Source: Costertonia aggregata (GTDB taxonomy: Bacteria > Bacteroidota > Bacteroidia > Flavobacteriales > Flavobacteriaceae). Taken from it: a DNA stretch of 64,000 nt. Both the position numbers and the translations under genes were made by a program. The stretch spans positions 283,501 to 347,500 of the forward strand of contig NZ_CP058595.1 of NCBI RefSeq assembly GCF_013402795.1. The letters run 5' to 3'. Each line of letters starts with the position of its first letter. Position 1 is the first letter of the stretch. The notes under the pieces are model-generated. The model had not been told where the DNA came from and did no database searches. It was given only the letters and a program-made list of their open reading frames with translations. Below, piece by piece: positions 1,772-29,960 of this stretch.

Positions 1772-2479
1772 ATGATAAACTTTCCTTTATTTGCCGGAAT
1801 AGCGGCTTCTATCATACATGTGGTTTCTGGCCCGGATCATTTGGCCGCAGTTACTCCCTTGGCGATTGAGACTAGGCGTAAAGTTTGGAAAATTGGCCTA
1901 TTATGGGGTTTTGGTCATTTGACGGGAATGCTTCTTATCGGGCTGCTTTTTCTTTTATTCAGGGAATATATTCCATTAGAAAAAATTTCGGAACATAGTG
2001 AGCAGTTAGTTGGGGTTGTTCTAATTGCTATTGGCCTTTGGGCATTGTTCAGTATCTTTTACAAAAGCAAAAATCACACACATCCGCATGTGCATGATGG
2101 AGAAAAACCTTATATTCATGTGCATGAACATGAGCATGACAAAAACAAGTTACAACACTCGCATATACATGAGAAGAAAATCAAACAAAACCAGTGGTCC
2201 TCTTTTGGTATTGGCATTCTACATGGCCTAGCGGGAATTGCACATTTTATCCTATTACTTCCTGTTTTAGGATTTGAAAATCAACTAGACAGCATTCAAT
2301 ATATTTTAGGATTCGGTTTTGGAACGGTTTTGGCCATGACGATTTACACCTTCCTCTTGGGAAAAGTTGCAAACTTCTCTAAGAATCAAAATAATAAATC
2401 TCTTTTCAGAACGGTACGTCTCTCTGGCGGAATTTTTGCCATTACCATTGGGATATATTGGTTGTACTTGAGTCTCTAA
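1772..2479 (+). CDS. High-affinity nickel (NicO/UreH-type) membrane permease
   Basis: A 235-residue polytopic membrane protein likely to import Ni2+ for the neighbouring [NiFe]-hydrogenase. The first helix carries the metal-binding signature H16-VVSGP-D22-H23-LAA, and a second signature, GILHGLAGIAH, lies in the second half. Between them, residues about 100-137 form a loop extremely rich in histidine (HTHPHVH, HVHEHEH, HSHIHEK), typical of nickel or cobalt permeases and efflux proteins of the NicO/RcnA/UreH group. The gene is convergent with the NHL gene that ends the hydrogenase operon, overlapping it by 4 bases, so the association is physical although the genes are on opposite strands. Import of nickel is inferred from context; cobalt transport or efflux cannot be excluded. 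Confidence 0.8.
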   Translation: MINFPLFAGIAASIIHVVSGPDHLAAVTPLAIETRRKVWKIGLLWGFGHLTGMLLIGLLFLLFREYIPLEKISEHSEQLVGVVLIAIGLWALFSIFYKSKNHTHPHVHDGEKPYIHVHEHEHDKNKLQHSHIHEKKIKQNQWSSFGIGILHGLAGIAHFILLLPVLGFENQLDSIQYILGFGFGTVLAMTIYTFLLGKVANFSKNQNNKSLFRTVRLSGGIFAITIGIYWLYLSL

Positions 2480-3570
2480 AAATTCAATTCGGTAATAACG
2501 ACACGATGATTTCCGGTGTCGGCGATGATGAGTTTATTTTCGTCTGTGGTAACCGAAAAAGGCCAATACAAGGAGCTCGAAGTGCCATGTAGGGTCTCTT
2601 TATTTTCGCTTCCGGTTTTGAAATCTCTCTTGCCGATGACCGCAGTGGCTTCTGCATTATGGTCTTTGGGAACTTTATCAAACCAAAGTATTCTGCTATT
2701 TCCAGTGTCGTTTACTAGTAATCCATCTTTGTAAAAACAGGCGTCATACGTCCAATTTAATGATTTTGACGAAGGAAATAATCCGAATTGATTCTGACCA
2801 CAAGCATCAAAATCGGTTTGCCCGATGATGGTGTCGGCGGGTTTTGAAAAGGCTTCTTCCACATTGTTCCATATGAGATTTCTGTAGAACTGAGTGTCAG
2901 CAACCACCATTTGCTTTTTGGAATTTACCTTTATAGAATACGGCCAAATAGGTTCGTTATTCTCGTAATCTCGTGTTGTAAAATTAGACTTTCCAATGAC
3001 TTCATCCGCCGTTGCAAAATTAGATTTGGGAATAGTATTGTAAAACAATATCCTGCGATTTCCTGTATCTGCTATCCAGAGACATTTTCCATCAGAGAAA
3101 ACCCCGTAGGGCCAGTTCAAAGTATGTGCTGAAGGGTCATTACCGATTCCATCCACATTGGGTTGGTTCGATTCAAAATCAGGTTGCCCTAAAACTACAT
3201 CGGCTGCTTGCCCGTTTTTTGTTGGTAACGAATGCCAAATCAAAACGCGATGATTCCAAGCATCACCGACAATCAAAATTTTTCCATCACTCCATATTCC
3301 AGAAGGGTAGTGCAAACTATTGGCGGTAACCATTCCCCCTGAATTCCGTCCTGTTTCCAAAACATCTGATTGCCCTAAAACAACATCGGGTTTTTGGTAT
3401 TCAGCTGCGGGTAAATTCCTCCAAATAAAAACACGATTACGACCTGTATCGGAAACAAAGAGATGGTTTTTTGCTACGAAAACTCCGCGTGGTGCCAAGA
3501 AAGGCATCTTTTGAGAACCTTTAAAAACATAAGAATCGGTGACGTGGGGACCGAGGGTTTCAAAATTCAT
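2476..3570 (-). CDS. NHL-repeat beta-propeller protein of the hydrogenase operon
   Basis: A cytoplasmic-looking protein of 364 residues with no signal peptide. At least five blades recur, each with a variant of VxGQxDF (VVLGQSD, VVLGQPDF, VIGKSNF, IIGQTDF, VIGKRDF) followed by a segment such as LFVSDTGRNRVFIW or LIIADTGNHRVVI, which marks NHL-type propellers. I start it at the ATG at 3570, one base past the hypE stop; an upstream in-frame ATG at 3636 would force a 65-base overlap into hypE and adds an unconvincing N-terminus. It is the last gene of the hydrogenase operon, so a role in assembly, scaffolding or electron delivery is suggested by position only. NHL propellers usually bind proteins or small ligands; the partner here is unknown. 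Confidence 0.75.
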   Translation of the reverse strand: MNFETLGPHVTDSYVFKGSQKMPFLAPRGVFVAKNHLFVSDTGRNRVFIWRNLPAAEYQKPDVVLGQSDVLETGRNSGGMVTANSLHYPSGIWSDGKILIVGDAWNHRVLIWHSLPTKNGQAADVVLGQPDFESNQPNVDGIGNDPSAHTLNWPYGVFSDGKCLWIADTGNRRILFYNTIPKSNFATADEVIGKSNFTTRDYENNEPIWPYSIKVNSKKQMVVADTQFYRNLIWNNVEEAFSKPADTIIGQTDFDACGQNQFGLFPSSKSLNWTYDACFYKDGLLVNDTGNSRILWFDKVPKDHNAEATAVIGKRDFKTGSENKETLHGTSSSLYWPFSVTTDENKLIIADTGNHRVVITELNF

Positions 3571-3571
3571 G

Positions 3572-4633
3572 CTAACAGATTCTAGGTAATTGTTCCCCAG
3601 GTAACATACTAATGACACGTTTGCCTCCAATGGCACTTTCCATGATTACTTGTTTCGGATGTTCGGCAACAACGGTTCCAATAATACGGGCATTTTTGCC
3701 ATTTTCATCTTCATGTAAAGTTGCTAAAACCGAATCAGCTTCCGATTCGGATACAAAGGCAAGAAATAAACCTTCATTAGCCACATACAAAGGGTCTAAA
3801 CCTAATAACTCACAGGCACTTGCTACTTGTTCATCCATCGGGAAATCCTTTTGAAATAAGTCAATTCCTATTTCCGAAGATTGGGCAATTTCTTTGAGAA
3901 CCGTTGCAACACCACCACGCGTTGGGTCGGTTAAAAGATGAATGTTTTCCCCAAATTGCTCAATCAAACTTAGTATGGTATGATTGAGATTGGTGGTATC
4001 ACTTTGGATTTCCGAATCAAATTCTAAACCTTCACGAACGGACATAATTGCCATGCCGTGAGATGCTACATTCCCGCTGATAATAATTTTATCGCCAACT
4101 GCGATGTTCTTAGCACTGATTTTTGCCTTGGGATGAATTGGTCCAACTCCTGAGGTATTCACGAAAATTTTATCGCCTTTTCCCTTTTCAACCACTTTGG
4201 TATCGCCTGTTACGATTTGTACACCAGCTTTTTGGCAGGCAAATTTGACAGCTACAAGAATATCCCAAAACTCTTTAACCGGAAGTCCTTCTTCAATGAT
4301 GAAACTCAAAGAAAGGTATTTGGGATTAGCACCACACATCGCCAAGTCATTGACGGTTCCGTTAACGGCTAGCTCGCCAATATTTCCGCCAGGAAAGAAG
4401 ATGGGAGATACCAAAAAGCTATCCGTAGAAAAAGCAGTTTTGCCATGTAACTCCAGAAAAGCACCGTCATGACGTTCATCAAGAATATCGTTGCTTAACA
4501 GGTCAAAAACGCCACTGTCTAAAAGTTTATTGGTGAGTACTCCGCCGCTGCCATGACCTAAAGTGATGACATCAAAGTCAAGTTTGGGCATGGGGCATTG
4601 CAGCTGCATGCGTATTTTTTTGTTTTCGGACAT
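3572..4633 (-). CDS. hypE: Hydrogenase maturation protein HypE (carbamoyl dehydratase)
   Basis: HypE takes the carbamoyl group from HypF on its C-terminal cysteine and dehydrates it with ATP to a thiocyanate, the source of the CN ligands of the [NiFe] centre. The protein has the PurM/AIR-synthase-like fold signatures: ITLGHGSGG near the N-terminus, TDSFLVSP, NGTVNDLAMCGA, VTGDTKVV and LTDPTRGGVA. It ends in the family's invariant PRIC, whose last residue is the acceptor cysteine. I chose the ATG at 4633, preceded by AGAAGA, 8 bases after hypD, giving 353 residues, close to the family norm; a longer reading from 4684 would overlap hypD. Translationally coupled within hypCDE. Confidence 0.96.
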   Translation of the reverse strand: MSENKKIRMQLQCPMPKLDFDVITLGHGSGGVLTNKLLDSGVFDLLSNDILDERHDGAFLELHGKTAFSTDSFLVSPIFFPGGNIGELAVNGTVNDLAMCGANPKYLSLSFIIEEGLPVKEFWDILVAVKFACQKAGVQIVTGDTKVVEKGKGDKIFVNTSGVGPIHPKAKISAKNIAVGDKIIISGNVASHGMAIMSVREGLEFDSEIQSDTTNLNHTILSLIEQFGENIHLLTDPTRGGVATVLKEIAQSSEIGIDLFQKDFPMDEQVASACELLGLDPLYVANEGLFLAFVSESEADSVLATLHEDENGKNARIIGTVVAEHPKQVIMESAIGGKRVISMLPGEQLPRIC

Positions 4634-4641
4634 TCTTCTGA

Positions 4642-5736
4642 TTAGGCTTCCACGAGTCCAGAAAAGTGATAGTAGGCTGCACAAGCCCCTTCACTACTGA
4701 CCATGGGCGCACCAAGTGGATTTGTAGGTTTACAGGTTTTACCAAATTGAGAGCATTCAAAAGGCTTTTTAATTCCTTTCATAATCTGACCCGAAATACA
4801 ATCTGGGTTTTCAGGTGCTTCTTCAATGGTGACATTATATTTTTTAGTGGCATCAAAGTCCGCATACTTTTCGCGAACGGCGTATCCACTTTCAGGAATT
4901 TCGCCAATGCCCCGCCACATCTGATTTCGTACCTCAAATACTTCATCAATTACTTTCTGGGCATCAGGGTTTCCTTCTTCACGGACTATTCTCGCATACT
5001 GGTTTTCAACTTCAGATTTACTTTGCTCAAGCTGTCTTATCACCATTAAGATGCCTTGCAAAACATCCAAAGGTTCAAAACCAGTGACTACAATTGGTAC
5101 TTTATATGCTGCTGACAAGGGGTGATATTCCGTATTTCCCATGATGGTGCAAACGTGGCCTGCGGCTAAAAATCCATCTATCTTACTTTCCTCATCATCA
5201 ATTACGGCTTTTATCGCAGGAGGTACCAAAACATGAGATGCTAAGATAGAATAATTTTTTACACCTCTACGATGTGCATGTACAACGGATAAGGCATTGG
5301 CCGGAGCCGTAGTTTCAAAACCAACGGCAAAGAAAACAACCTCTTTATGAGGATTGTCCTCAGCAATTTTTACAGCTTCCAAAGGAGAATATAAAATACG
5401 AACATCGGCACCTTCAGCCTTGGCTTCCAAAAGACTTTTTTGAGAACCAGGTACACGTAGCATATCTCCAAAAGAACAAAGGATAACGCCTTTTTCCACC
5501 GCCAAATAAACCGCTTTATCAATTAAGTTCAGTGGTGTCACACAAACCGGACAACCGGGTCCGTGAATCATGGTGACTTTGTCAGGTAGCATCTCAATAA
5601 TACCATTCTTTACCAAACTGTGCGTTTGACCGCCACAAACTTCCATAATCGACCATGGTCGGGAGACTGTATTTTTGATTTCCTCCAAATATTTTTTCGC
5701 CAACTCTGGGTCGCGATACTCTGACATGTACTTCAT
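4642..5736 (-). CDS. hypD: Hydrogenase maturation protein HypD (Fe(CN)2CO assembly)
   Basis: A 364-residue iron-sulfur protein that, with HypC and HypE, builds the Fe(CN)2CO unit for the hydrogenase active site. Conserved elements are visible: MEVCGGQTH (C34), [10 protein letters not shown] (C62, C65), the [12 protein letters not shown] and [13 protein letters not shown] segments, and a C-terminal cysteine set (CSQFGKTC and GACAAYYHF) that holds the [4Fe-4S] cluster. It starts at the ATG at 5736, two bases after the hypC stop; a second ATG three codons in is also possible. Length and motifs are standard, and nothing suggests loss of function. Confidence 0.96.
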
Positions 5737-5738
5737 AG

Positions 5739-6014
5739 CTATTCTGATTTAGGTAAATACTCATCTACATCTTCCAGTTCGCCCAATTCACCAATCTCTT
5801 CAAGATATTTAAACGTTTTTTGCGCTTCTTCTTCATTGACTTTGCTAATAGCAACACCAACATGCACGAGAACGTAGTCATCCACGTCAGCATCGGGCAA
5901 CATCTCCAAACTTGCTTCTTTGGTAATGCCACCAAACGAAACCTTTGCCATGCGCACCATGCCACCATATTGTATTTCAATACTCTTGATTTTTCCTGGA
6001 ATTGCTAAACACAT
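5739..6014 (-). CDS. hypC: Hydrogenase assembly chaperone HypC
   Basis: Small (91 residues) chaperone that carries the iron unit from HypD to the hydrogenase large subunit. It begins MCLAIPGKI, with the essential cysteine at position 2 that binds the iron and the large subunit, and continues with the family's OB-fold pattern ([25 protein letters not shown]). The C-terminus is acidic, which is common. It lies 3 bases after hypF and 2 before hypD. In some genomes a paralogue (HupF/HybG) exists; only one copy is present here, so it probably serves the single hydrogenase of this operon. Confidence 0.96.
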
Positions 6015-6017
6015 AAT

Positions 6018-8279
6018 TCAATTTTTAATATGTTGATGATACCATAATTGACCTATGGAAATGTTCTCGTCGTTACTAGACAATATACGATTAAATTTTA
6101 ATTCAAACCCTTTCTTTTCAGCCATTTGAAGCAGTTTTTCGACCAAAACAGCATTTTGAAACACTCCTCCGCTGCATGCAATACGGCTAAAATTATTTTG
6201 CTCAGCCACCTTGATAATGGCCAAAGCCAAAGTGTAAATAAAGCTATTTGCAATTCGTGCTTTTGAATACCCTTTAAAAATCGCTTTTTGAATGTTCTGG
6301 GTAATTATTTTTATCGGGACCTTCTGATAATCTACCCCAAATAGAAAATCAATGTAATCAGTGCCTTTATAGTTTCTCGCTTGATTCTCTAAAAGCATTG
6401 CTGCTTCACCTTCATAGGAAGTGGTATCAATATCAAGTAGGAGAGATGTAACCGCATCAAACAGTCTACCCACGGAAGAAGTTTTTAGCGAATTATTCAC
6501 TAACATCTTGTTATATATCTTCCATTCGGTTTCTGAAAACTTGGTCTTTGCCATATGTTTTTCGGTTTCAGGAAGCATACTGAGTAAGGACAGTCGTGGC
6601 TCTTTAGCCATTTTGTCCGCAGCAATCCAATCTACATATTCGAAATGAGTTAATCGCTCCATTTTGTAATTGGCATAAGAGAAAAACTCACCACCCCAAA
6701 TGGCGTTGTCTTCTCCGTATCCGGTGCCATCCCAAATAATACCTAATATTTTTTCCTCGGAATCGAAGAGCTGATGTTCCCCTAAAACACTTGCAAAATG
6801 AGCTTTGTGATGTTGAATTGCTATGAGTTTTGTTTTCCATTGCTCTGAAAGTTCTTTTCCCAATATGCTACTTTGATATTGGGGATGTTTATCAATTAAA
6901 ATGGTTTCAGGTCTTGTATCAAAAAGGTTACTGTATTTGTCGATGCTCTCCTGAAAACGCCCTGAAACATCGTAGCTATCCAAATTTCCAAAATACGGAC
7001 TCACATACGTATGGGAGTTGGGCGTAAACGTGAAAGTGCTTTTTAAATGCGCACCCATCGCCAGTACTTTCTCATTGTTTGCTCTATTACTGCTTAGGTA
7101 ATTTGGAGCAAGTCCGCGTGAGCGTCTCAGGGCAATTTGATGTTCCCTTGCAAAACGAACTACCGAGTCATCTTGAGGAAAAGAAATAGCTAAATCGTGA
7201 TGCAAGAAATAATCTGCCACTCCGGTTAGCTTTTCAATGGCATTGTCTTTCTCTGAAATAATGGGAGAGCCATGAATATTTCCACTTGTTGCTATAATGG
7301 GAATTTGCAATTCATCCATCAAAAGTGTTAATAAAGCTGAAGATGGCAACATAACCCCAAGTTGATTTAATTTAGACGCGATACTTTCTTGTTCTAAATC
7401 GGCAATAATCGCTTTCGGATTTAAAATGACAATTGGGGCAACCGAAGAAGTAAGAGCTTTTTCCTCTAGAATGCTTACCTGAAAATCATTTTTGATTCTC
7501 TCTAGAGACGGATAGAGTAGGGCAAAAGGTTTCGCTGGGCGTTGTTTTTGTTTTCGTAATCGTTCGATTGTTTCCTTATTATTCGCATCGCAGCATAGTA
7601 AATAGCCATTGGTGTTTTTAATGGCTATTATGCTTCCTCCTGAAAGTAAGGCCGCAGTTTTTTTTAGGATATTACTTTGGGTTTGATTGAGCTGCCTACT
7701 ATCGGTATCAACAAGTTGAAGCTGAATTCCGCAATCTGCACAGCTATTGGTTTGCGAATGAAATCGCCTGTCATCAGGGTTGGTGTATTCCGTTTGGCAC
7801 GAATCACACATTGCAAAGGCAGAAACCGTGGTGTTTGCTCGCTCAAAAGGGAACTTTGCTGTCACCGCATATCTTGGTCCGCAGTTTGTGCAAGTAGTGA
7901 AAGCATAACCAAATCGTCTGTTCTTTCTGTCTCTGATTTCTTCCTTGCAAGATTCGCAAATCGCAAAATCAGGGGTTAAGGGAATATCGATTTGATGATT
8001 GGTGTCCGAAGAAATAATCTTAAAATCATCATATTCCTGAAACGAAATTTCTGAAATAGAATGTGATTGAATAATCGATATCTCGGGAGCATTGTCGAGC
8101 AGTTGTCCCAAAAAAACCTTTGCTTTATCCTCGGAGGTATTAATGTGAATTAAAACCCCATCCTGATTGTTGCAAACGGAACCTTTGAGTTGAAATTGTT
8201 TCGCTAAACCATACACAAAGGGGCGGAAGCCCACCCCTTGAACCTGTCCAGAAATTGTAATTTCAAAGGTTTGCAACAT
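6018..8279 (-). CDS. hypF: Carbamoyltransferase HypF
   Basis: HypF converts carbamoyl phosphate to carbamoyl-adenylate and passes the carbamoyl group to HypE, the first step of cyanide-ligand synthesis. All four parts are present in 753 residues: an N-terminal acylphosphatase domain (GQVQGVGFRPFVYG, residues 11-24), two zinc-finger motifs (C108/C111/C130/C133 and C158/C161/C180/C183), a YrdC-like nucleotide-binding domain (about 205-390), and a Kae1-like carbamoyltransferase domain (IAIQHHKAHFASVLGEH, GIIWDGTGYGEDNAIWGGE, ACSGGVFQN). Length matches the family. It sits between hypB (8-base gap) and hypC (3-base gap) in one transcription unit. Confidence 0.96.
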   Translation of the reverse strand: MLQTFEITISGQVQGVGFRPFVYGLAKQFQLKGSVCNNQDGVLIHINTSEDKAKVFLGQLLDNAPEISIIQSHSISEISFQEYDDFKIISSDTNHQIDIPLTPDFAICESCKEEIRDRKNRRFGYAFTTCTNCGPRYAVTAKFPFERANTTVSAFAMCDSCQTEYTNPDDRRFHSQTNSCADCGIQLQLVDTDSRQLNQTQSNILKKTAALLSGGSIIAIKNTNGYLLCCDANNKETIERLRKQKQRPAKPFALLYPSLERIKNDFQVSILEEKALTSSVAPIVILNPKAIIADLEQESIASKLNQLGVMLPSSALLTLLMDELQIPIIATSGNIHGSPIISEKDNAIEKLTGVADYFLHHDLAISFPQDDSVVRFAREHQIALRRSRGLAPNYLSSNRANNEKVLAMGAHLKSTFTFTPNSHTYVSPYFGNLDSYDVSGRFQESIDKYSNLFDTRPETILIDKHPQYQSSILGKELSEQWKTKLIAIQHHKAHFASVLGEHQLFDSEEKILGIIWDGTGYGEDNAIWGGEFFSYANYKMERLTHFEYVDWIAADKMAKEPRLSLLSMLPETEKHMAKTKFSETEWKIYNKMLVNNSLKTSSVGRLFDAVTSLLLDIDTTSYEGEAAMLLENQARNYKGTDYIDFLFGVDYQKVPIKIITQNIQKAIFKGYSKARIANSFIYTLALAIIKVAEQNNFSRIACSGGVFQNAVLVEKLLQMAEKKGFELKFNRILSSNDENISIGQLWYHQHIKN

Positions 8280-8287
8280 AGGTATTG

Positions 8288-8983
8288 CTATCCTTTCTTC
8301 TGTTGGATTTTTTCAAGCAACCAATCACACCATTCATCAACTCCCTCATCAGATAATGCGGAAATTTGAATCACCTCCAATTCATGATTGACTTCGCGGG
8401 CATCTTTAGTAACTGCTTCCACAGAAAACGGAACATAGGGTAGTAAATCTGCTTTGGAAACCAACATCATATCACTAGTCAAGAACATCTTGGGATATTT
8501 CTTTGGTTTGTCATCGCCTTCGGTGGTCGCCATAAGAGTCACACGGTAATCTTCACCCAAATCGAAGGAAGAAGGACACACTAGATTCCCGACATTCTCG
8601 ATAAATAACAAGTCGATATTTTCCAAATCGAACTGGTCCAAAACCTGATGTATCATTTGTGCTTCTAGATGGCAAATGCCACCGGTTACAATTTGTAAAG
8701 CCTGAATACCAGTTTCACGAATACGGTCTGCGTCACGTTCGGTTTCTAAGTCTCCGACCATCACGGCGATTTTGATTTTATCCTTTAGTTTTTCAGCTGT
8801 TTTCTGCATTAGGGTCGTTTTACCACTACCTGCAGAAGACGTAATATTTATAAGGAGTGTGTCAGTTTTAGCCATTTCCTTCTTAATAATATCTGCCACA
8901 AAATCATTTGCCTTGAGCAAGTTGATATTCGTGTTTTCGCACTGTACGGTTCCACGTGCTGCTTTTGTTGATTTCTCTACCAT
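8288..8983 (-). CDS. hypB: Nickel-insertion GTPase HypB
   Basis: HypB is the GTPase that, with HypA, delivers nickel to the iron-loaded large subunit. The 231-residue protein has the P-loop SSAGSGKTT (about residues 49-57) and the G-domain metal site, C104-H105 and C136 (GGICHLEAQ and NLVCPSS). Unlike many proteobacterial HypB proteins it has no histidine-rich nickel-storage stretch at the N-terminus; in this locus that role may fall to the His-rich permease loop at 1772-2479, which is an inference. The start at 8983 gives an N-terminus containing one cysteine (C15) but not the CxxCGC high-affinity site. Confidence 0.95.
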   Translation of the reverse strand: MVEKSTKAARGTVQCENTNINLLKANDFVADIIKKEMAKTDTLLINITSSAGSGKTTLMQKTAEKLKDKIKIAVMVGDLETERDADRIRETGIQALQIVTGGICHLEAQMIHQVLDQFDLENIDLLFIENVGNLVCPSSFDLGEDYRVTLMATTEGDDKPKKYPKMFLTSDMMLVSKADLLPYVPFSVEAVTKDAREVNHELEVIQISALSDEGVDEWCDWLLEKIQQKKG

Positions 8984-9013
8984 AGTCTTTTCTTCTTTGA
9001 ATCAATTTTTCTT

Positions 9014-9361
9014 CTAGTCGTCAAATTCTACTTTGTGAATAAGCATTTCTTCGCCTTGAATCACATTTTTGCTGGGTCGTTCGCAATTATCACATATGAA
9101 GCGATAGTTCTTCACATCCGTAATATGGTTGCAAACTTCACATTGTATTTTTAAGTCAGTCATTTCTATTTTGAGCTGAACATGGTGATACTGTGGACTC
9201 ATCATTTGAGATGCTTCATAAGCATTATATAAAAGCCGAGGTTCGATATTTGAAAGAATACCGACCTTCAAATGAATAGCTTTCATTTTATTCAACTTTT
9301 CCGCCTCAAACTCTTGCTCGAGGGTTCGCATGATGCTATTTACGATGGAGGTTTCGTGCAT
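9014..9361 (-). CDS. hypA: Nickel metallochaperone HypA
   Basis: A 115-residue zinc protein that binds nickel through its first residues and works with HypB. It begins MHETSIVNS, with the nickel-binding histidine at position 2, and carries the structural zinc site in two CxxC pairs (C74/C77 and C90/C93). Its ATG overlaps the stop codon of the helical-repeat gene upstream by one base (TAATG arrangement), which points to translational coupling between the unknown accessory genes and the maturation genes. Confidence 0.95.
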   Translation of the reverse strand: MHETSIVNSIMRTLEQEFEAEKLNKMKAIHLKVGILSNIEPRLLYNAYEASQMMSPQYHHVQLKIEMTDLKIQCEVCNHITDVKNYRFICDNCERPSKNVIQGEEMLIHKVEFDD

Positions 9362-10842
9362 TAGATTAAACTTTTTACTTTTTCCAATTCTTGAAGATGT
9401 TTGTCCGCCTGTTCTATTAAACTGGCATCGGTTACCAAGGTTTTTATTTCCTCGGCTTTTGCCTTCATCTCTTCGTATTTTTTCAACTCTTCTTCGCTAG
9501 TTTCATTATGCGTAAGCCAGCCTAATTCCAACTGATTCATAAGGGTCAAGGCACGCTCAAAAGGATAAGCACTCGCCGTTCGTATTTCAAGGGCTTCTTC
9601 AAATAAACCTGACGCCTTTTCCAAATTATCATGAATTTTTGCTGGAGGAAAATGCATCAAAGCGGTCGCATAGTTATGACTCGCCATGGCATTCTCATAA
9701 GGATATTCTTCTTTAGTGTAGAATGACAACACTTCTTTAAAGGAAGATGCGCAAAAGGCCGTCCACATTGGTTTTTCTTCTGCCCCAACGGGAATTTCAG
9801 AATAAATCAATGCCAAATTATGATGTACATCGGCAAATTTCTGCGGATGCGTATCACGTTTAAATACTTTTAGTACATCCTGAAAAGCATTGATGGCAGC
9901 CTTGTAATACTGCGGACTACCATTTTTGGACCAAGTATATAATAGGATTGCTTTTTTGAATCCCGCCTCTCCTAAAAATTCAGGAATGTCTTCTTGCTTA
10001 AAGTATTGAATAGCTCTGTTAATCAATTCTTTAGATGTGATAAAATCTTCTTTAAAATTGGCCACTTCAGCAGCATCGACCAATACCATTCCAGCCTGTA
10101 TTTTTTGATTTTTTGCTTCAAAGTGTGCGATGGATTGTAGCTGCAGGTCAAGAACTTCGTCCAACTTCTCAGTACTATAAGGCACTTGTAATTGCGCCAT
10201 AAGGATTCCCGCTAAATGGGTGTTCAAAGCATTTTTGGCATCCTCAGAAATAGCAATTGCAGCCTGTTCTTCTGCTAAGGCTTTGGCAGTATCTAATTCT
10301 CCAGCATCTAAAAGTAAATTCAAATAGTGTTTTGCTGAAAATACTTTTATCTCATCATTTTCGGCTTTTTCAATAGCATGGGAGAAAAGACTCTTGAGCT
10401 CCTTATGATTCAATGGATTTTCAACAACCCCATAATAATTTAAAATCGCATGGTTATGTGGTAAAGTATTATAGCAGAAATCTACCATGCCTGGTGAAAT
10501 CTCATATCCAAATTGTAAATGGGTAGCAATCAAAAGGTGATGATATATCGGATATTCTTCCGAAACAAATTCAAACGATTTCTGCTGATTCCCTAGTTTA
10601 TAGAATACCAGTGCTAGTAGATTTTCTTTATTAAATGGTGTAGTTGGAAAAGCATAGGGCGGTTCCATATCATACCAATCCAAGGGAATTGAAATCTCAT
10701 CTGCATCCACAACTAAGGTTTTCAAGTCATTTATCGCTTCAGAATCTTCGGTTATGCTGACCAATTCGTCCAATCGGTCTACTGACGCAATGGCTTCTTG
10801 AACCTTTTTATGGGCGCTAGTTGATGTTAATATCGTAAGCAT
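9361..10842 (-). CDS. TPR-like helical-repeat protein of the hydrogenase operon
   Basis: A 493-residue soluble protein without signal peptide or membrane segment. From about residue 75 to the end it is a chain of paired amphipathic helices with TPR-like spacing (for example GNQQKSFEFVSEEYP, HYLNLLLDAGELDTAKALAE, NLALIYSEIPVG, HNYATALMHFPPA), so it is likely a superhelical protein-binding scaffold. It overlaps the 85-residue gene upstream by 26 bases and hypA downstream by one base, so it is embedded in the operon. I do not recognise a named family. A role as a chaperone or assembly platform specific to this hydrogenase class is inferred only from position. Confidence 0.75.
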   Translation of the reverse strand: MLTILTSTSAHKKVQEAIASVDRLDELVSITEDSEAINDLKTLVVDADEISIPLDWYDMEPPYAFPTTPFNKENLLALVFYKLGNQQKSFEFVSEEYPIYHHLLIATHLQFGYEISPGMVDFCYNTLPHNHAILNYYGVVENPLNHKELKSLFSHAIEKAENDEIKVFSAKHYLNLLLDAGELDTAKALAEEQAAIAISEDAKNALNTHLAGILMAQLQVPYSTEKLDEVLDLQLQSIAHFEAKNQKIQAGMVLVDAAEVANFKEDFITSKELINRAIQYFKQEDIPEFLGEAGFKKAILLYTWSKNGSPQYYKAAINAFQDVLKVFKRDTHPQKFADVHHNLALIYSEIPVGAEEKPMWTAFCASSFKEVLSFYTKEEYPYENAMASHNYATALMHFPPAKIHDNLEKASGLFEEALEIRTASAYPFERALTLMNQLELGWLTHNETSEEELKKYEEMKAKAEEIKTLVTDASLIEQADKHLQELEKVKSLI

Positions 10843-11074
10843 CTTTGTCTACTTTTTGGTTGCCTCTTGGGTCTTTTGCTGCAGTTTGCTGCATGCTTCT
10901 ACCATAAATTTCGGCTAGTCGCTCCGAGCGATAATCACCTATGGTCTGAATTAAGACTTGGTTCGGGTCTTTGGTGTTGATAAATATAAGCGAAACTTCC
11001 CAACGGCCTTTGATAGGAGTAACCTTGTACTGAACTTCAGCATCTAAAAGCCAATCGTTTTTTTGTTTCGTCAT
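10817..11074 (-). CDS. Unknown 85-residue protein of the hydrogenase operon
   Basis: Small soluble protein that I do not recognise. It has a predicted beta-strand-rich core (EVQYKVTPIKGRWEVSLIF), then a helix (ERLAEIYGRSMQQTAAKDP) and a polar tail. It lacks cysteines and a membrane segment. It follows the 105-residue gene by 9 bases and overlaps the helical-repeat gene by 26 bases, which supports co-expression and a shared task. Because the operon lacks a recognisable membrane anchor or quinone-reducing subunit, this is one of three candidates for an accessory or scaffold subunit; that is inference. Confidence 0.7.
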   Translation of the reverse strand: MTKQKNDWLLDAEVQYKVTPIKGRWEVSLIFINTKDPNQVLIQTIGDYRSERLAEIYGRSMQQTAAKDPRGNQKVDKDAYDININ

Positions 11075-11083
11075 TAGTAAATT

Positions 11084-11401
11084 CTAAATAGCCACTTTTA
11101 TCAAATTCGTTTTTTCAATGATTTCATATTCCAATTCTCTATCGGTCATATTTAAATCGTTATCAATAAGTATTTCCCGAATAGCGAGTGTTTTATCACC
11201 TTTCAAGTTACGCGATTTTAATAAAAACTGGGTAGGTTTATACATTTTAACAAACCACTGACTTGAAACGGGAGTGATCAAAATTTTTCCTTGTTCTTCC
11301 ACATAGGTGACATAGGCATAATGAATGTTTCCGAAAATGGGTTCAATCAATTCATTATCCAAGTAAATATGGGAGGTCTTCAGGGTGATTTTTGCACTCA
11401 C
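11084..11401 (-). CDS. Unknown 105-residue protein of the hydrogenase operon
   Basis: Small soluble protein of unknown function with alternating hydrophobic beta-strand pattern (KITLKTSHIYLDNELIE, GNIHYAYVTYVEEQGKIL) and a charged C-terminal half. No cysteines, signal peptide or membrane segment. Its start overlaps the end of the maturation protease gene by 4 bases (ATGA), a strong sign of coupled translation. It may help fold or process the hydrogenase, or be a small structural partner; nothing in the sequence decides between these. Confidence 0.7.
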   Translation of the reverse strand: MSAKITLKTSHIYLDNELIEPIFGNIHYAYVTYVEEQGKILITPVSSQWFVKMYKPTQFLLKSRNLKGDKTLAIREILIDNDLNMTDRELEYEIIEKTNLIKVAI

Positions 11402-11877
11402 GTAGGTATCGACAGATTTAAATCTTCTAAGATATGCTGTACCACTTTGTCTCCCGCTTCCTTCACTACATCGCTCAAATCTACTTCTAATTTGGTGTTT
11501 TCGATTGCCACCAAATACACTTGAATATCATCAGGATAATCATCCTGTAATATTTTCTTGGTATAGGACAATGCTTGGTCCCATTTCATTCCATGGAGAA
11601 AAACCAAAGGGTCATCTTGAGGGGCTTTCATAACTTCTTCTGCTGGGACCTTAAATAATGTGCCAACGGGTTCATTGCTATTCAAAACCGCATCGGCTAA
11701 AATTATTCTATCATGTCCTTTTAATCCGAAAAGTACTTCGAAAGCCGCAGTACCCATATCGAAAATGCTAATATTTTCTGATTCTGGAAGTTTTTCCCGC
11801 AGTTGTTCAATTACATAAATGCCCACCGCATCATCACTTCGCACCGGATTTCCAAATCCCATTATTGCCGTCTTCAT
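11398..11877 (-). CDS. hupD: Hydrogenase maturation endopeptidase (HupD/HycI family)
   Basis: Nickel-dependent protease that clips the C-terminal peptide of the large subunit after metal insertion. The 159-residue protein begins with the family pattern MGFGNPVRSDDAVG and has the three residues expected to sense nickel: D16, D62 (ILADAVL) and H95 (FLHGMKWD). Its substrate is encoded directly upstream: the large subunit still carries a 15-residue tail after its final histidine. The gene is set off from the large-subunit gene by 81 bases that contain a strong hairpin, so it may be expressed at a lower level than the structural genes. Confidence 0.92.
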   Translation of the reverse strand: MKTAIMGFGNPVRSDDAVGIYVIEQLREKLPESENISIFDMGTAAFEVLFGLKGHDRIILADAVLNSNEPVGTLFKVPAEEVMKAPQDDPLVFLHGMKWDQALSYTKKILQDDYPDDIQVYLVAIENTKLEVDLSDVVKEAGDKVVQHILEDLNLSIPT

Positions 11878-11901
11878 ATCTTTTTAATTTCCAGTTAAAT
11901 T

Positions 11902-11934
11902 AAAAAACTTTCCCGAGGTTGCCCTCAGGAAAGT
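11902..11934 (-). terminator. Hairpin with U-tract between large-subunit and protease genes
   Basis: On the minus strand ACTTTCCTGAGG pairs with CCTCGGGAAAGT (one G-T pair) over a GCAA tetraloop, a 12-base-pair stem with loop at 11919-11922, followed by six T residues. This is the shape of a Rho-independent terminator, but it lies inside the operon. Partial read-through, or a 3' stabilising hairpin for a short structural-gene transcript, would give more HupSL than maturation proteins. Confidence 0.8.
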
Positions 11935-11958
11935 CCTTTTACAACTATATGTCAGAAG

Positions 11959-13551
11959 TTATAGTTTAAATCTTGATAACTCCGCACCACTTTGTGCATC
12001 ATGGGCATGTACTGTACATACCAAGCATGAATCAAAAGAACGGGCAACGATACCTACTTCTACAGGGTCTAATGGGTCTTCGATTGTCGTACCCAAAAGT
12101 GCTGTTTCAATCGGTCCGGGATTATCATTACCATCTTGCGGACCAACATTCCATGTCGTCGGAGCCATTACTTGATAGTTTTTGATAACACCATCTTTGA
12201 TTTCTATCCAGTGCGCCAACGCGCCACGGGCAGCTTCAGTTGCACCGAAACCTTTTCCGTCTTTTTCTACAGGTTTTACATAAAACTCGCCGTCCAAATC
12301 AATTTCAGATAACCACTGCTCAATGAATTTGTAGATTCTTGGCGCTTCATGAACTCTGGCCAATACCCTCGTGAATACACTTGGCCCTAGTTTTTTGATG
12401 ATATCCCCAAATAATGGGTCTCTGATTTGGTGTTCTTTATTATTCGGATTAGCATTCATAATTACACGTGCTAAGGGTCCGGCTTCCGCAGCATGACCGT
12501 CATAGCGAGGCGCTTTTGACCAACTATATTGATTGTCAAAATCACTATCATGTAATGTTTGTGATTTCATTGGGGTCGGAAGCGGCTCATCCCATGGGTG
12601 AAGTCCGTCTTCTTGGTTACCATACCAAGAATGCTTTACATGCTCACTTACTTTCATGTGGTCAAATTCGTGATAGTTTTCGCTATCGAAGAATCCACTA
12701 GATGAAATCAAAGCTGCATTTCTTCCTTCAATCGTTGGGTTGTTGTACATGTCTTTGTGCAAATAGGTTCCTGTTGCCAAAAACTTTCCAACACCTTGTC
12801 CGAATTTGTCCAATCCGAATTCAAGTCCAGCTCGAATCAATAATCCTAAATCACTATTTCGTTGTGATTCGTTTTCTTCGACCCAAGCCAACATATCGTC
12901 CCATGTCTTGATTTCCATGTAGCGCTCAATAGAGCAGCCCAACCAAACAGGTTCAAGCCAATCATTTTTGAACTGTGCCAAAATCGCATGTGCTCTAGTA
13001 ATGTCCTTTAGGGTTGGAGCACACATCACACCACCAGGTACCATATAACTTGAATGTGGCCATTGACCACCGAATAAGGCATAAATCTGAACAGGCAATC
13101 CGCTTGCGGTCAAACCAATCTGAAAGGTTTCCCCAACATACGCTGACCAGCGTTTTACAACTTCCTTATATAAAGGTTTATCGGCATACTTTTTATTGGC
13201 TAAATCCGTAGCGAAAATAGCGTAGTACCATCTTGGTATACTCTGAAGGGTTTCCGAAGCTTGACCAATCGCTCTTAACAAAAGTGCGTTGGGCGTCAAC
13301 TTGGTTCCCCAGGCCGTATCCAATGCGGATGAAGCACAATATAAGTGGGAACCTCCGCAAATTCCACAAATTCTAGGCGTAACAATGAGTCCTGATTGGG
13401 GATCCTTGCCTGCCATGATTTTCTCAAAACCCCTAAACATTGCTGCTTGCGTATGGGCGCGAGTGACTTTACCGTTGTCGATATAGACCTTCACATCCAA
13501 ATCGCCTTCAACGCGACCTACAGGGGATATATTTAATTCTGTAACTGACAT
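11959..13551 (-). CDS. hupL: [NiFe]-hydrogenase large subunit, group 2a-like
   Basis: Catalytic subunit (530 residues) that binds the Ni-Fe(CN)2CO centre and splits H2. The four nickel ligands are present: C62 and C65 in RICGICGGSH (L1), and C509 and C512 in DSCLVCTVH (L2). After H515 a 15-residue tail, AHDAQSGAELSRFKL, remains to be cut off by the endopeptidase. The L2 form with DSC rather than DPC, and the L1 form with ICGICGG, are as I recall them for cyanobacterial HupL and actinobacterial Huc (group 2a), not membrane-bound group 1 enzymes. It lies 20 bases downstream of the small-subunit gene. Group assignment is by motif memory and needs a phylogeny. Confidence 0.93.
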   Translation of the reverse strand: MSVTELNISPVGRVEGDLDVKVYIDNGKVTRAHTQAAMFRGFEKIMAGKDPQSGLIVTPRICGICGGSHLYCASSALDTAWGTKLTPNALLLRAIGQASETLQSIPRWYYAIFATDLANKKYADKPLYKEVVKRWSAYVGETFQIGLTASGLPVQIYALFGGQWPHSSYMVPGGVMCAPTLKDITRAHAILAQFKNDWLEPVWLGCSIERYMEIKTWDDMLAWVEENESQRNSDLGLLIRAGLEFGLDKFGQGVGKFLATGTYLHKDMYNNPTIEGRNAALISSSGFFDSENYHEFDHMKVSEHVKHSWYGNQEDGLHPWDEPLPTPMKSQTLHDSDFDNQYSWSKAPRYDGHAAEAGPLARVIMNANPNNKEHQIRDPLFGDIIKKLGPSVFTRVLARVHEAPRIYKFIEQWLSEIDLDGEFYVKPVEKDGKGFGATEAARGALAHWIEIKDGVIKNYQVMAPTTWNVGPQDGNDNPGPIETALLGTTIEDPLDPVEVGIVARSFDSCLVCTVHAHDAQSGAELSRFKL

Positions 13552-13571
13552 TTTCTTTTTTTTTGGTTCTT

Positions 13572-14531
13572 TTATTTAGAAGTTTCCTGTACCCTTTTAT
13601 TGGTTGGCAAGATTTTTTGGAAACCTGCTTCCATGTAATACGCAAGCTTGCTTCTTCCCTCTGGTACTTCTTTTGGAAAGACTCCCAAGGTTTTCATCGT
13701 TTTCAATACACTTCCTTTTTTAAGGTCGTGATGGGGAAAGCCAGGTTCAGTGCAGCCTAAGCATGGATGATTCGCTCTTGTTTTACTGGATTGTCTATTC
13801 CATAATATATTATTACAACTTGCACGTGTCATGGGGCCTCTGCATCCTACTTCGTAGAATAAGCATCCACCACGAGTTCCGAAGCCACCATCTACTTTCT
13901 GTGCAAAATTGACTACGTTCGTACAACCCGTTTGCACGAAGTCCGTGAAGAATGTTTTAGGTCTATGGTAATCATCGATTTGTACGTCACCGATTCTTCC
14001 CACGGAAATGGCTACAAGTATTTGTGTTATCCAATCAGGGTGCGCAGGACATCCAGGAATATTGATTACCGGCAAGCCACCTTTAGATACATAGTTTGGC
14101 CCGAGGAAACCGCCTTTATTCTTTTTCAAGAATTGCATTCCAGTAGATTCACTAGGGTTCGGCGGAACCGCAGGTATACCTCCCCAGGTTGCGCAATCGC
14201 CAATAGCGACGACATAGCCTGCAACCTCTGAAAGTTCTTTGATCCAGTCCTTCATGGGACGGTCAGCGAATAAATTCATCGTACCCGTATTGTCTGGGCC
14301 TTGAATTATCGAACCTTCAAAAACAAGGATATCCATCTGCACTTTTCCATCGAGAATATCTTTTAAAAGGTCTTGAACTTGATCCCCAATCTGTAAACCT
14401 GTTGTTGGGTGCCATAAAATGTTTAATCCGAAATCGGTGATGAGCTCCACCACGGTTGGTTCTTCGGCATTTAGAAAGGACATTGTGTTGCCACTGCATG
14501 CGCCTCCTTGTAACCATAGTACGTTAGCCAT
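13572..14531 (-). CDS. hupS: [NiFe]-hydrogenase small subunit, group 2a-like, no Tat signal
   Basis: Electron-transfer subunit (319 residues) with three Fe-S clusters. It starts directly with MANVLWLQGGACSGN, so there is no twin-arginine leader and the enzyme should stay in the cytoplasm. The proximal site keeps C12, C113 and C161, but the usual second cysteine of the CxxC pair is N15. The distal site keeps C203, C223 and C230, while the usual histidine three residues before the first cysteine is Q200. The medial site has C239, C257 and C260. Three ligands at each site fit three [3Fe-4S] clusters, as reported for mycobacterial Huc. First gene of the operon. Confidence 0.93.
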   Translation of the reverse strand: MANVLWLQGGACSGNTMSFLNAEEPTVVELITDFGLNILWHPTTGLQIGDQVQDLLKDILDGKVQMDILVFEGSIIQGPDNTGTMNLFADRPMKDWIKELSEVAGYVVAIGDCATWGGIPAVPPNPSESTGMQFLKKNKGGFLGPNYVSKGGLPVINIPGCPAHPDWITQILVAISVGRIGDVQIDDYHRPKTFFTDFVQTGCTNVVNFAQKVDGGFGTRGGCLFYEVGCRGPMTRASCNNILWNRQSSKTRANHPCLGCTEPGFPHHDLKKGSVLKTMKTLGVFPKEVPEGRSKLAYYMEAGFQKILPTNKRVQETSK

Positions 14532-14793
14532 AAATTATTGGATATTTAAATTTAAAGTACTGAAAATAGGGATATAACATATATTTAACAAAATAAATAT
14601 GACTTTTTACTTTATTTGAAAAGTTTCTAAATAATTTGTTTAAAGTTTTGTTTTGATGTGTCAAACAAAGTTTGAATTTTAATATTCACTCGCAATTTTC
14701 GAGATGTTTTGAACTTATTATAAACGATAAAATTGCGAAAGAATAGAAAGTTACAAAAAGGCTTATGAAGTATTGTAGTGAAAACTATATTTC
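14532..14793 (-). promoter_or_regulatory. Upstream region of the hydrogenase operon with a 10-bp inverted repeat
   Basis: AT-rich 262-base stretch between the tRNA terminator and hupS, the only place for the operon promoter. I find no exact TAnnTTTG box on the minus strand; the nearest is TATTTTGT around 14590-14597. A perfect 10-base inverted repeat, TCGCAATTTT at 14690-14699 and AAAATTGCGA at 14729-14738, lies 160-210 bases upstream of the start codon and could be a paired operator or a stem. A shorter dyad, TTTGA-N4-TCAAA, is at 14652-14665. No other gene is seen here. Confidence 0.45.
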
Positions 14794-14825
14794 ACAAAAA
14801 ATCCAACCATAAAAATGGTTGGATT
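14794..14825 (-). terminator. Rho-independent terminator after the tRNA-Pro pair
   Basis: AATCCAACCAT at 14800-14810 pairs perfectly with ATGGTTGGATT at 14815-14825 over an AAAA loop (11 base pairs). On the minus strand the stem is followed by a run of T (bases 14795-14800). It ends the tRNA transcript and insulates the hydrogenase operon, which runs in the same direction. Confidence 0.85.
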
Positions 14826-14830
14826 TATCG

Positions 14831-14905
14831 TCGGGATGAGAGGATTCGAACCTCCGATCTCACGGCCCCCAGCCGTGCACTTTAACCGGACTAAGCTACA
14901 TCCCG
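14831..14905 (-). tRNA. tRNA-Pro (anticodon GGG)
   Basis: Read on the minus strand, a complete 75-base cloverleaf runs from CGGGATG at the 5' end to CATCCCG plus the discriminator A. The anticodon stem CACGG/CCGTG encloses loop CTGGGGG, giving anticodon GGG, which reads proline codons CCC and CCU. The T arm GGAGGTTCGAATCCTC is standard. CCA is not encoded. Confidence 0.95.
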
Positions 14906-14950
14906 AAACTATTAAAATAAAAAGCCAAACAAAGAACGTTTGACTTTTTG

Positions 14951-15025
14951 TCGGGGTGGCAGGATTCGAACCTGCGACCTCCGCGTCCCAAACGCGGCGC
15001 GATAACCGGGCTACGCTACACCCCG
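14951..15025 (-). tRNA. tRNA-Pro (anticodon TGG)
   Basis: A second complete minus-strand cloverleaf of 75 bases, with acceptor CGGGGTG/CACCCCG and discriminator A. The anticodon stem CCGCG/CGCGG encloses TTTGGGA, giving anticodon TGG for the codons CCA and CCG. T arm GCAGGTTCGAATCCTGC. It precedes the GGG isoacceptor by 45 bases and is probably co-transcribed with it. CCA is not encoded. Confidence 0.95.
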
Positions 15026-15147: not shown

Positions 15148-18100
15148 CTATCTATACAAGGTAAAATGGCCAACATACTGCTGTTTATCCTGGTCATTCG
15201 CATTTACAACATACCAGTAATCACCTGTGGGTACTTCTGACCCTTCGTAGGTACCGTCCCAAGATGTAATTTGGTCTAGAATAGCGACTACCCTACCGTA
15301 CCTATCATAGATTTTGACTTCAATATTGGGAAAGAACTCCCTATTTCTAGGAAACCATTCATCATTGTTGTTATCGCCATCGGGGGTAAAGAAATTGGGA
15401 ATGTCCAACATACCCGTAAAATTAAACGGTATTTGAATCGTAGCTTCACAACCTCTAGCATCGATTACCCTTATGGTGACATTATCATCTTCGTTTAAGT
15501 TGTATGTATTTATATCTCCTGTGCTTTCGCCTTGAAAGAAAAATTCATACTCTCCAAAACCGCCTTCAGCAGTAGCGGTCAGTTCATTCGGACCTGTTTG
15601 TTCGGCGGTCAAAGTCAAAGGATCGTAGGCATCGATCTCAAATTCTACAAATTGTGCACAACCTCTTTGATGATACACATAAACCGTATGCATTCCGGGT
15701 GATAAATCTCCCCATGTTCGCTGTGTATCAGCTTGTGCGGTTATGGCATCTGTAGGATCCACCGGATCCAAGGCATAAAGCACGTCGGGCATTAAACTAG
15801 TATCTACTACGCTGACCGTTACCGTACTATTTGGAAATATGCCATCACACCCATATTGTACATCAAACTCGGGCACCAAATCTATTCCTATTTCTATGGG
15901 AACTACTACGTTTGTTTCACAACCTCGAGAGTCCCTTACGAAAATAACATAAGTCTCGCCTCCTCTCAAACTGTCAAAAAACATACTATCGTTCCTCACA
16001 AAATCTGCATCATCATTTGTATTGACACTGGTAAAATAAGGGGCGGTACCACCACTAACTTGCAACGTTACCGTGCCATTTTCTTCTCCAAGGCATATTT
16101 CTGGTGTAGAGTCGACTATACCTGCTACCAATTCCTGAGGTTCAAGGATTGGTACGGTCTGGGTTATAGTACAACCAAGTTCATCTTGAATAATGATTTC
16201 ATAACCAGAAGGTCTAGGTGACAAGTTCGAAAATGTTTTTCTATTGGGGTTTGATGGATCGTCTCCTTCGAAAAATTCACTCAAGGTATCGGAGATGGAA
16301 TATCGTATAACCCCGGTTCCCCCACTTGCCTCAATGATGATTTGACCGTCTGTTTCTCCGTTACATGAAACGGGTACAGCCTCCAAATATTCAAGTACCA
16401 ATGGTTCCTTAGGCTCTATAACTATCGGGTCTGAAATTGCGATACAACCACCGCTTTGGGCAAAGACCCAATAACTTCCCGGTCCTAAATTTCTGAAAAT
16501 ACCAGATGATTGTGGCCCACCGTTAGGTACAATATCACCTACAATCGGCATATTTGGAACCCCACCGTTGGCAGCACTTCCCAAATCATTATTCACTAAT
16601 GTGTAAATATAGTTTCCTATACCTCCAAAAGCTTCTGAACGTATAATACCGGTTGCCTCACCTGCACAGTTTATAGTGGCGTTCGTTAAATCCAACGCTA
16701 CAACCAATGGTGCGGCCGGATCTAGGGAAATTTGGTTTGACGATTCCGATGGACAACCATTGGAGTTTTGTACATCGTATATAAAGGGTCCCGGATCTAC
16801 TGTAATATCAGCGGAAATCTGAACCGATGTGGCTAAAGGGTCGGTCGTGCTGAACGGCACGAAGGCATCCGTAGTACCTGACCTTCTAAAGAAGTAGCTA
16901 ACGCCAAGTTCTGGATTGGAGACCGATAGCTCCATCAAGCCTAGGTCACCACAACCCGGTGGATTTAATTCTATTAGCTCAGGAATGATAATTTCCGGAT
17001 CTTGAATAGTAACCGAAGATGTAGTGAACTCACAATCCCAACCATCAAAGACAGATATGCTATACTCTCCTGCGGATAAGTTGGCAAATGTAGTTGTTGT
17101 TTGTAGACCACTGACCGTACCTTCTGTAATTCTATTTAATTGGTATAGATAATTACCGGCTCCTTGACCACCGACAACGTTAAAAACTTCTATACTACCA
17201 TCATTATCATTGTTACATTGTAACGGATTTACTATCTGAATATCTGCCGATATGGCCGTAGGTGGATTTAGGACTATTGAATTTGTTTCCGTACAGCCTA
17301 AAGCGTCCCTAACGTTTATCGTGAAGGTATCCGCATCCAAGCCTGAGACAATGTTGTTGGTATCAGGAAAATCCTGAACTATAGTACCATCCGATGCTAT
17401 TACCTGAAATTCATACGCGCCCCATCCACCATCACCGGTCAAGGTAATCTCACCGAGCCCAGGGTTTGCACATGTTACATCCGATGTTTGAACCGGAGTA
17501 ACCGTCAGTGGCCTATCCGGCCCTCTTACCGTTTCCACATTACTGAACGTATCACAAAAAGGTGTGTCCTGCGCATCTATCCTGACTATAAGATTACCCG
17601 CTGGTAACCCTCCGATGATTTCCGGGGTATTTATAGGTGCTGTCGTATCAAAAGAACCGGTTACTCCAGTAGTAGTTTCGACCCCTGCATTATCCCTTGT
17701 AAACACTTCATAATCATAAGCTCCCGTATAATTGTTTATTGTTATGCTTATTTCACCATCCCTGCCATTAAAGCAGGTTACCGGCCTGGTTTCTGCTATA
17801 ACGGCATCGATTGTATTATATTCCGGTACGTTGACGATATTCGTAATGTAGGAACAACCTCCTACCTCAGTAACTGCAAATATGTAGTCCCCAGAAGTAT
17901 CAATAGGGTAATTGATTCTGTCACCACCTCTAATTTGAAGCACCGGGCCGGAGCCTAAAGGCAACAATTCTACATCGTAATCCCCTGTTCCTTGATTTAC
18001 AATGACCTCAACGGAGCCCGGGTTTGCCGTAGTACCATCCACTGGGTCACAAGTAATCGGATTTACATTAAGCGTAAAAGTCAAATCGGTTGGTACCCGT

Positions 18101-29141: not shown

Positions 29142-29156
29142 GGCTAAGGCCTGGAT

Positions 29157-29174: not shown

Positions 29175-29183
29175 ACGTTTCCT

Positions 29184-29933: not shown

Positions 29934-29960
29934 GATATTGATAATGGCTAGTTATAAAAC

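Follow-up and report, generated by a model that had tools for sequence, protein, structure and literature searches.

The uptake hydrogenase Huc of Mycobacterium smegmatis is composed of HucS, HucL and HucM, of which HucM is considered the quinone conduit, while the associated HucE is regarded as probably carrying electrons or aiding assembly. The HucSLM complex carries three [3Fe-4S] clusters and oxidises H2 below the atmospheric level (7UUS, 7UUR, 7UTD, 8DQV; PMC10017518). In the consulted portions of the papers cited here and below, Huc activity in M. smegmatis is described as requiring HucE, a NifU-Rieske protein (PMC6883350), and hucE as commonly associated with hucL (PMC7784904), with 9.5% of hydrogenase-positive species having neither HucE nor HhyE (PMC6883350). 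The group 2a hydrogenase on plasmid F of Sphingopyxis alaskensis likewise consumes H2 to sub-atmospheric levels (PMC10305171). For cyanobacterial HupSL, the extended hyp operon asr0689-alr0693 places TPR and NHL genes between hupSL and hyp, with a proposed role in maturation of the small subunit (PMC2408588). Islam et al. (2020, PMC7784904) drew on 34 Bacteroidota genomes to describe a radiation of group 2a associated with this phylum. The present analysis concerns a 64,000-nucleotide stretch (the window; G000:C1:283501-347500) of the one-contig, 3.91 Mb genome of Costertonia aggregata, which carries an operon of this type. The favoured reading, given a probability of roughly 0.7 and drawn from sequence comparison, is that it encodes a working cytoplasmic group 2a [NiFe] uptake hydrogenase, which would reduce menaquinone without HucE or HucM in support of mixotrophic aerobic growth.

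The original prediction had described thirteen consecutive minus-strand genes, and every open reading frame (ORF) is indeed present, from 14531 down to 2476. In order of transcription these are:

13572..14531, minus strand: hucS, small subunit, 319 residues (families and by-eye reading)
11959..13551, minus strand: hucL, [NiFe] large subunit, 530 residues (PF00374, Huc structure match)
11398..11877, minus strand: hydrogenase maturation protease, HycI (family match)
11084..11401, minus strand: u105, accessory protein of 105 residues (predicted fold, operon relatives)
10817..11074, minus strand: u85, 85 residues, relative of an 85-residue protein after the protease in the mycobacterial Huc operon
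9361..10842, minus strand: TPR-like protein, 493 residues, homologous to TPR proteins in Huc operons of other phyla
9014..9361, minus strand: hypA (family match)
8288..8983, minus strand: hypB (family match)
6018..8279, minus strand: hypF (family match)
5739..6014, minus strand: hypC (family match)
4642..5736, minus strand: hypD (family match)
3572..4633, minus strand: hypE (family match; start shifted)
2476..3570, minus strand: NHL-repeat protein (family match; start shifted)

Above their cut-offs, HucL matches PF00374, HucS matches Oxidored_q6 and NiFe_hyd_SSU_C, and HypA, HypB (CobW), HypF, HypC, HypD, HypE, NHL and the HycI protease match their families. The motifs RICGICGG, DSCLVCTVH and LWLQGGACSGN, earlier claimed for the two subunits, can all be read in the sequence, and a gene array of this kind is impossible by chance. 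Inspection of the starts favours the ATG at 4633 over the listed TTG at 4684 for hypE, and the in-frame ATG at 3570 over the listed GTG at 3636 for the NHL gene.

Assignment of the enzyme to group 2a stands, as the closest solved structure and a tree with named references agree. Compared with solved structures, HucL is closest to Huc (7UUS, E 5e-203, against 3.7e-62 for the next family), with 61% identity to the M. smegmatis protein. The tree comprised 123 large subunits, with Huc, S. alaskensis, Sulfobacillus, Thermus and the 2b proteins HoxC and HupV as references and, as outgroup, 16 group-1-like large subunits from the partial-match Flavobacteriaceae genomes (see below) having loci. This phylogeny, built on named references where HydDB sequences had been proposed earlier as a check, places the window HucL inside group 2a, and the placement outside group 2 that was to count against the call was not seen. 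The sequence lies in a 98-tip clade (support 0.967), consisting of the 97 rows of the Bacteroidota set (window, L004, L005, L007-L016, L033-L110, L112-L115, L120 and L128) and of L111, an alphaproteobacterial metagenome-assembled genome (MAG), which was left out of the set despite its position in the clade. Together with Huc, M. intracellulare, Thermus and Sulfobacillus this clade forms a node of 102 tips (support 1.0), outside which S. alaskensis and Octadecabacter branch next; the node uniting all 2a references against an unassigned Ideonella sequence has a support of only 0.288. HoxC and HupV fall outside the 2a clade, and the window HucL does not group with them. Two CxxC active-site motifs, a C-terminal extension and a protease gene are also present, as in group 2a. 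The assignment is correct but not new, and the window HucL is most likely, by its sequence, one more member of the radiation described in 2020.

Counts across the Bacteroidota set rest on 82 named rows (window, L033-L110, L112, L120 and L128), the remaining rows being partly duplicates; the scan of named genome contigs covers the best 80 of 432 confirmed relatives. In an even draw of 397 Flavobacteriaceae genomes, C. aggregata included, HucL at 85–100% identity occurs in 14, and 30 further genomes have partial matches at 31–51% identity. Across the phylum sample, 5 of 395 genomes have a HucL match at E 1e-60 or better. The nearest named HucL among the matches listed are those of Maribacter sp. 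PR1 and [Muricauda] okinawensis (97%) and Zobellia uliginosa (95%). Order and strand of hucS, hucL, the protease and the TPR gene are kept in 70 of the 73 named loci that reach 4.5 kb or further past hucL. In the same 73 loci, tblastn finds u105 in 67 and u85 in 58 (35 with a match after hucL, 32 with one ahead of hucS). Some of the named rows bear labels of other taxa, namely L055 (Rickettsiales), L063 (Candidatus Kapaibacterium), L091 ('bacterium') and L109 (Thalassobius); a Bacteroidota-type hydrogenase in the Proteobacteria-labelled MAGs L111, L055 and L109 would reflect misbinning or transfer. Two Bacteroidota Huc operons are borne on plasmids, in Runella slithyformis (L120, pRUNSL01) and Hymenobacter psoromatis (L128).

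The Bacteroidota operons apparently lack HucE and HucM, which the original prediction did not notice and which bears on its proposal that trace H2 is used. In nine of nine operons from other phyla (Mycobacterium, Sphingopyxis, Novosphingobium, Mesorhizobium, Bradyrhizobium, Octadecabacter, Roseovarius, Thermus and Sulfobacillus) a model-confirmed HucE gene lies between the TPR and NHL positions; in the window hypA directly follows the TPR gene and no gene occupies the HucE place. A HucE model built from three sequences recovers all six held-out loci, which encode five distinct proteins, at E 1.4e-60 or better; its only other matches are the C. aggregata NifU/Nfu loci L123 and L124. Among operon loci of the Bacteroidota it finds nothing at E 1, and both TPR and NHL lie within 52 of the 82 named ones. 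At genome level, full-length HucE was found in none of 17 Huc-bearing Bacteroidota genomes, C. aggregata included (16 near complete, G389 at 75%), and in both positive control records. Stand-alone NifU and Nfu matches do occur in the Huc-bearing genomes, and NifU also in all four genomes without Huc.

Nor was HucM (DUF1641) found in the Bacteroidota operon loci. Its best match in the C. aggregata genome scores 11.7 bits, under the cut-off of 21, and no DUF1641 match above cut-off is present in 15 of the 17 Huc-bearing genomes, with three records carrying an annotated DUF1641 gene found as control. HucM was likewise not found in six proteobacterial operons. One of these belongs to S. alaskensis, which draws H2 down to sub-atmospheric levels (PMC10305171), so HucM cannot be a general requirement. 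The literature search, which covered passages of papers, found no statement that Bacteroidota Huc lacks HucE and HucM, and the main text of the paper on HucE contains no word starting 'Bacteroid' (PMC6883350). As far as that search shows, the apparent lack of both proteins is new, as are four points described below: the accessory-gene relatives, the difference in the HucS tail, the retention of menaquinone-contact and most O2-filter residues, and the signs of purifying selection on all 13 genes.

Residues of the two subunits were compared by using names from the consulted part of PMC10017518, with numbering carried over via chain alignment, and were counted over distinct full-length sequences of the named loci, identical ones once (76 HucS and 80 HucL). 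The menaquinone contacts of HucS are largely retained, with Lys212 in 75 of 76, Tyr229 in 75 and Tyr301 in 74, the window having all three. The O2-filter or cluster residues Glu15, Ile64, Ser104, His166 and Arg443 are present in 80 of 80 HucL; the 16 group-1-like large subunits share Glu15, His166 and Arg443 but not Ile64 and Ser104. HucL continues for 15 residues after CTVH, the point at which the solved Huc chain stops, and by this analogy the C-terminal peptide is probably cut off. HucS starts with MANVLWLQGGACSGN, in which no export signal is apparent by inspection, and keeps 9 of the 11 Huc-chain cysteine columns, 59 and 115 being the ones lost. At its other end, the tail W..ED(M/I)F of the nine operons from other phyla (seven distinct HucS) occurs in none of the 76 Bacteroidota sequences; 69 of these end in SK, as does the window HucS. 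The sequences suggest that the change of tail tracks the lack of HucE rather than that of HucM, a lead and not a proof, as a single event on one branch is possible. A membrane-binding helix at this tail is no more than a guess, hydrophobic moments of five tails (0.28–0.43) failing to separate the groups.

The three proteins previously listed as unknown (u105, u85 and the TPR protein) remain without significant Pfam or NCBIfam match, and PHROGs gave none for u85 and u105 and one weak match for TPR; group 2a operons from other phyla do, however, encode relatives of all three. The sequence case for this is strong for the TPR protein, which is related to Huc-operon TPR proteins of Thermus (E 3e-22), Sulfobacillus, Sphingopyxis and Mycobacterium, and weaker for the other two. 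With the u85 model, the 85-residue mycobacterial operon protein is recovered at E 1.3e-7, and a 165-residue Sulfobacillus protein is matched weakly in its C-terminal part (E 0.008). A u105-u85 fusion in Sulfobacillus is only a suggestion from that match, the u105 half not being found. For u105 the model finds one distinct proteobacterial protein (Octadecabacter, Roseovarius) at E 5e-6, other matches being at 0.01 or worse. Its predicted structure, with a predicted local distance difference test (pLDDT) score of 94.9, appears to resemble MraZ (VIA-align Z 8.5, root-mean-square deviation 2.6, 90 residues; next Z 4.2), although Foldseek alone gave no match at E 0.001. The predicted structure of u85 (pLDDT 75.9) has no clear structural match (best Z 5.4). 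Identification of u85 as a reduced HucM found no support, as its relative sits in a mycobacterial operon that itself encodes HucM, phmmer against PDB sequences returned no HucM, and the structural model has no clear match. Equating u85 and u105 with cyanobacterial asr0689 and asr0690 found no support either, the latter being described with membrane spans (PMC2408588); by description, the only level of comparison, the cyanobacterial proteins look more like the proteobacterial 70- and 73-residue proteins. Those proteins (L117:14390-14835, with relatives in L121 and L129-L132) lie between TPR and HucE in proteobacterial operons that gave no HucM match, look membrane-spanning by eye and are possible membrane anchors.

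Comparison of the 13 genes with Zobellia uliginosa, Maribacter sp. PR1 and Allomuricauda profundi by pairwise Nei-Gojobori counting gives 0.59–0.86 synonymous and 0.02–0.28 non-synonymous differences per site. All 13 genes look to be under purifying selection, and as non-synonymous changes are few at near-saturated synonymous sites, the operon is probably in use. Recent transfer as the source of the 85–97% HucL identity between genera was discarded on the same ground, since synonymous sites are near saturation in the three relatives tested. Elsewhere in the C. aggregata genome, no other PF00374 large subunit was found (both PF00374 matches are parts of this hucL), nor any [FeFe]-hydrogenase (PF02906) or RuBisCO, and COX1 has two matches over cut-off. 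No convincing NifH (PF00142) was found, the best match covering 38 positions at 28 bits (cut-off 25) inside a ParA-like protein; this family search is uninformative alone, giving matches in 14 of 14 control genomes. A probable GlcNAc/glycan-use locus lies in the window at 27186-38928, with a glucosamine-6-phosphate isomerase with PIG-L domain, a TonB-type receptor, GHL10 and GH3. Taken together, the lack of RuBisCO, NifH and another hydrogenase, the two COX1 matches and the glycan-use locus point to what is probably an organoheterotroph burning H2 as a supplement. By analogy with relatives in other phyla, the earlier proposal of trace H2 as a supplementary energy source is plausible.

In the favoured reading, HucL would be built and trimmed by HypA-F and the protease, with u105, u85, TPR and NHL acting as dedicated assembly factors. 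At the [NiFe] site, reached through a gas channel that keeps O2 out, H2 would be split, and the Fe-S clusters of HucS would pass electrons to menaquinone bound beside the distal cluster. The menaquinol would then be oxidised with O2 by the haem-copper oxidases of the cell, yielding respiratory energy while it feeds on organic carbon. With HucE and HucM missing, the membrane link must differ from that of Mycobacterium; the quinone may be met by HucSL itself, possibly via the changed C-terminal tail, or by an unlinked partner. A tentative extension, possible rather than probable, is that the Bacteroidota have a further 2a architecture, in which HucSL reduces membrane menaquinone without HucE, a HucM stalk or the small membrane-like proteins of proteobacterial operons, docking instead by the clade-specific HucS tail.

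Several observations weigh against this reading. Since M. smegmatis Huc requires HucE for activity, a Huc without it could be non-functional. DUF1641 is not wholly absent: G430 carries a clear gene at a distance of 70 kb from hucL, and G011 has a match of 22.1 bits that is borderline. Of the quinone contacts, Lys212 acts via its backbone (PMC10017518), and all 16 group-1-like small subunits share Tyr229 but differ at 212 and 301, so that only Tyr301 discriminates well. The O2-filter position 112 is Ile in 80 of 80 HucL and Leu in Huc, H2 oxidation by Bacteroidota 2a members had not been reported to the knowledge of the authors of PMC7784904, in its consulted part, and H2 affinity cannot be read from sequence. 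Separate Rieske-domain matches, moreover, occur in 8 of the 17 Huc-bearing genomes (and in one of the four that lack Huc), which makes a split HucE conceivable in those eight. Such matches, the requirement for HucE in M. smegmatis (PMC6883350) and the 86-residue NifU and 304-residue Nfu proteins of C. aggregata would all suit an active enzyme that passes electrons first to a partner encoded elsewhere, be it NifU-like, a separate Rieske protein, a ferredoxin or another membrane protein, in place of HucE or HucM. This reading is unlikely but deserves attention: NifU matches in all four Huc-free genomes give it a housekeeping character, no Rieske match to the HucE model exists in the C. aggregata genome, and the window operon has no room for the recurrent extra ORF families.

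That the operon is cryptic or condition-bound, with no H2 consumed in ordinary culture, appears improbable. The flavobacterium Robiginitalea biformata, with a group 1l enzyme, showed no substantial H2 consumption in three weeks (PMC10305171), but its hydrogenase belongs to another class, and intactness of all 13 genes, their few non-synonymous changes and the gene order kept in 70 of 73 loci speak for use. Recycling of internally made H2 from a nitrogenase or fermentative hydrogenase, the role given for cyanobacterial group 2a (PMC7784904), is very improbable in a genome with no second PF00374 large subunit, no PF02906 match and PF00142 only inside the ParA-like protein. Least credible is an H2 sensor like the group 2b HupUV/HoxBC, to which a cytoplasmic HucSL without membrane subunit is superficially similar; the 2b references fall outside in the tree, no histidine kinase is among the 13 genes, and the protease gene and C-terminal extension are retained. 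H2 sensors are not known to have either.

Two features flank the operon:

1772..2479, plus strand: DsbD_2/NicO/HflD-type membrane protein with a His-rich loop, possible nickel permease (profile scores)
14532..14829, minus strand: 298 bp gap between hucS and a tRNA-Pro gene, likely site of the operon promoter

A nickel permease had been placed at the 3' end of the operon; a candidate gene is present, but it lies outside the interval given for the operon, is convergent on the plus strand, and shares 4 bases with the NHL gene at the end of the latter. Its best score is for DsbD_2 (38.8 bits, cut-off 24.9), with NicO below cut-off (21.6 against 27.7), and it is 31% identical to an HflD-annotated protein of the S. 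alaskensis Huc operon. Two tRNA-Pro genes (14830-14905 and 14950-15025) precede hucS, and a promoter consensus scan of the gap gave scores no better than shuffled sequence. Upstream of the tRNA genes, at 15148-23631, lies a 2827-residue SprB-repeat protein with a CHU_C type IX secretion signal domain.

Extra ORFs of at least 70 residues were collected from 83 loci: TetR regulators (48 loci), a bifunctional-nuclease-like protein (18), a 73-residue protein (10) and a membrane-like protein of about 289 residues (8). The TetR-type cluster comprises 77 genes in its 48 loci, all L055 and later, located upstream of hucS (for example L088:8141-8761, L096:7115-7747 and 8187-8807) and, where inspected, next to the u85 copy on that side. 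No gene of this cluster occurs in L033-L054, and the window has none before hucS; from these sequences, regulation of Huc operons seems to differ within the phylum. The 289-residue protein lies inside the operon in seven loci, between hypA and hypB (L043:13096-13965, L045:13687-14556, L051:14549-15409, L054:5851-6720 and L066-L068), with an eighth relative elsewhere in L055. The L054 copy has no Pfam match, and the protein is a candidate membrane partner in those lineages.

If a lineage under selection has neither HucE nor HucM, it would show which parts of the machine can be spared, and H2-oxidising biocatalysts could then be built from fewer parts. Flavobacteria like Zobellia, Maribacter and Allomuricauda are marine polysaccharide degraders and, if the enzyme is active, would join the tested H2 sinks.

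Set against the known systems, the window shares with M. smegmatis Huc the quinone contacts and most O2-filter residues (PMC10017518), and differs in having no HucM, no HucE, another HucS tail and Ile for Leu112. The related operon on a M. intracellulare plasmid (L116) has the protease, a u85 relative, TPR and NHL as in the window. S. alaskensis resembles it in HucSL, protease, a u105-like gene (by position), TPR, NHL and the hyp genes, with no DUF1641 match on its plasmid, and is unlike it in having HucE, the 70- and 73-residue membrane-spanning-looking proteins and the W..EDIF tail. The cyanobacterial hyp operon, compared by published description only (PMC2408588), similarly places TPR and NHL genes between hydrogenase and hyp, and departs from the window in having the NifU-like alr0692 and a pair of ORFs, each predicted to span the membrane twice.

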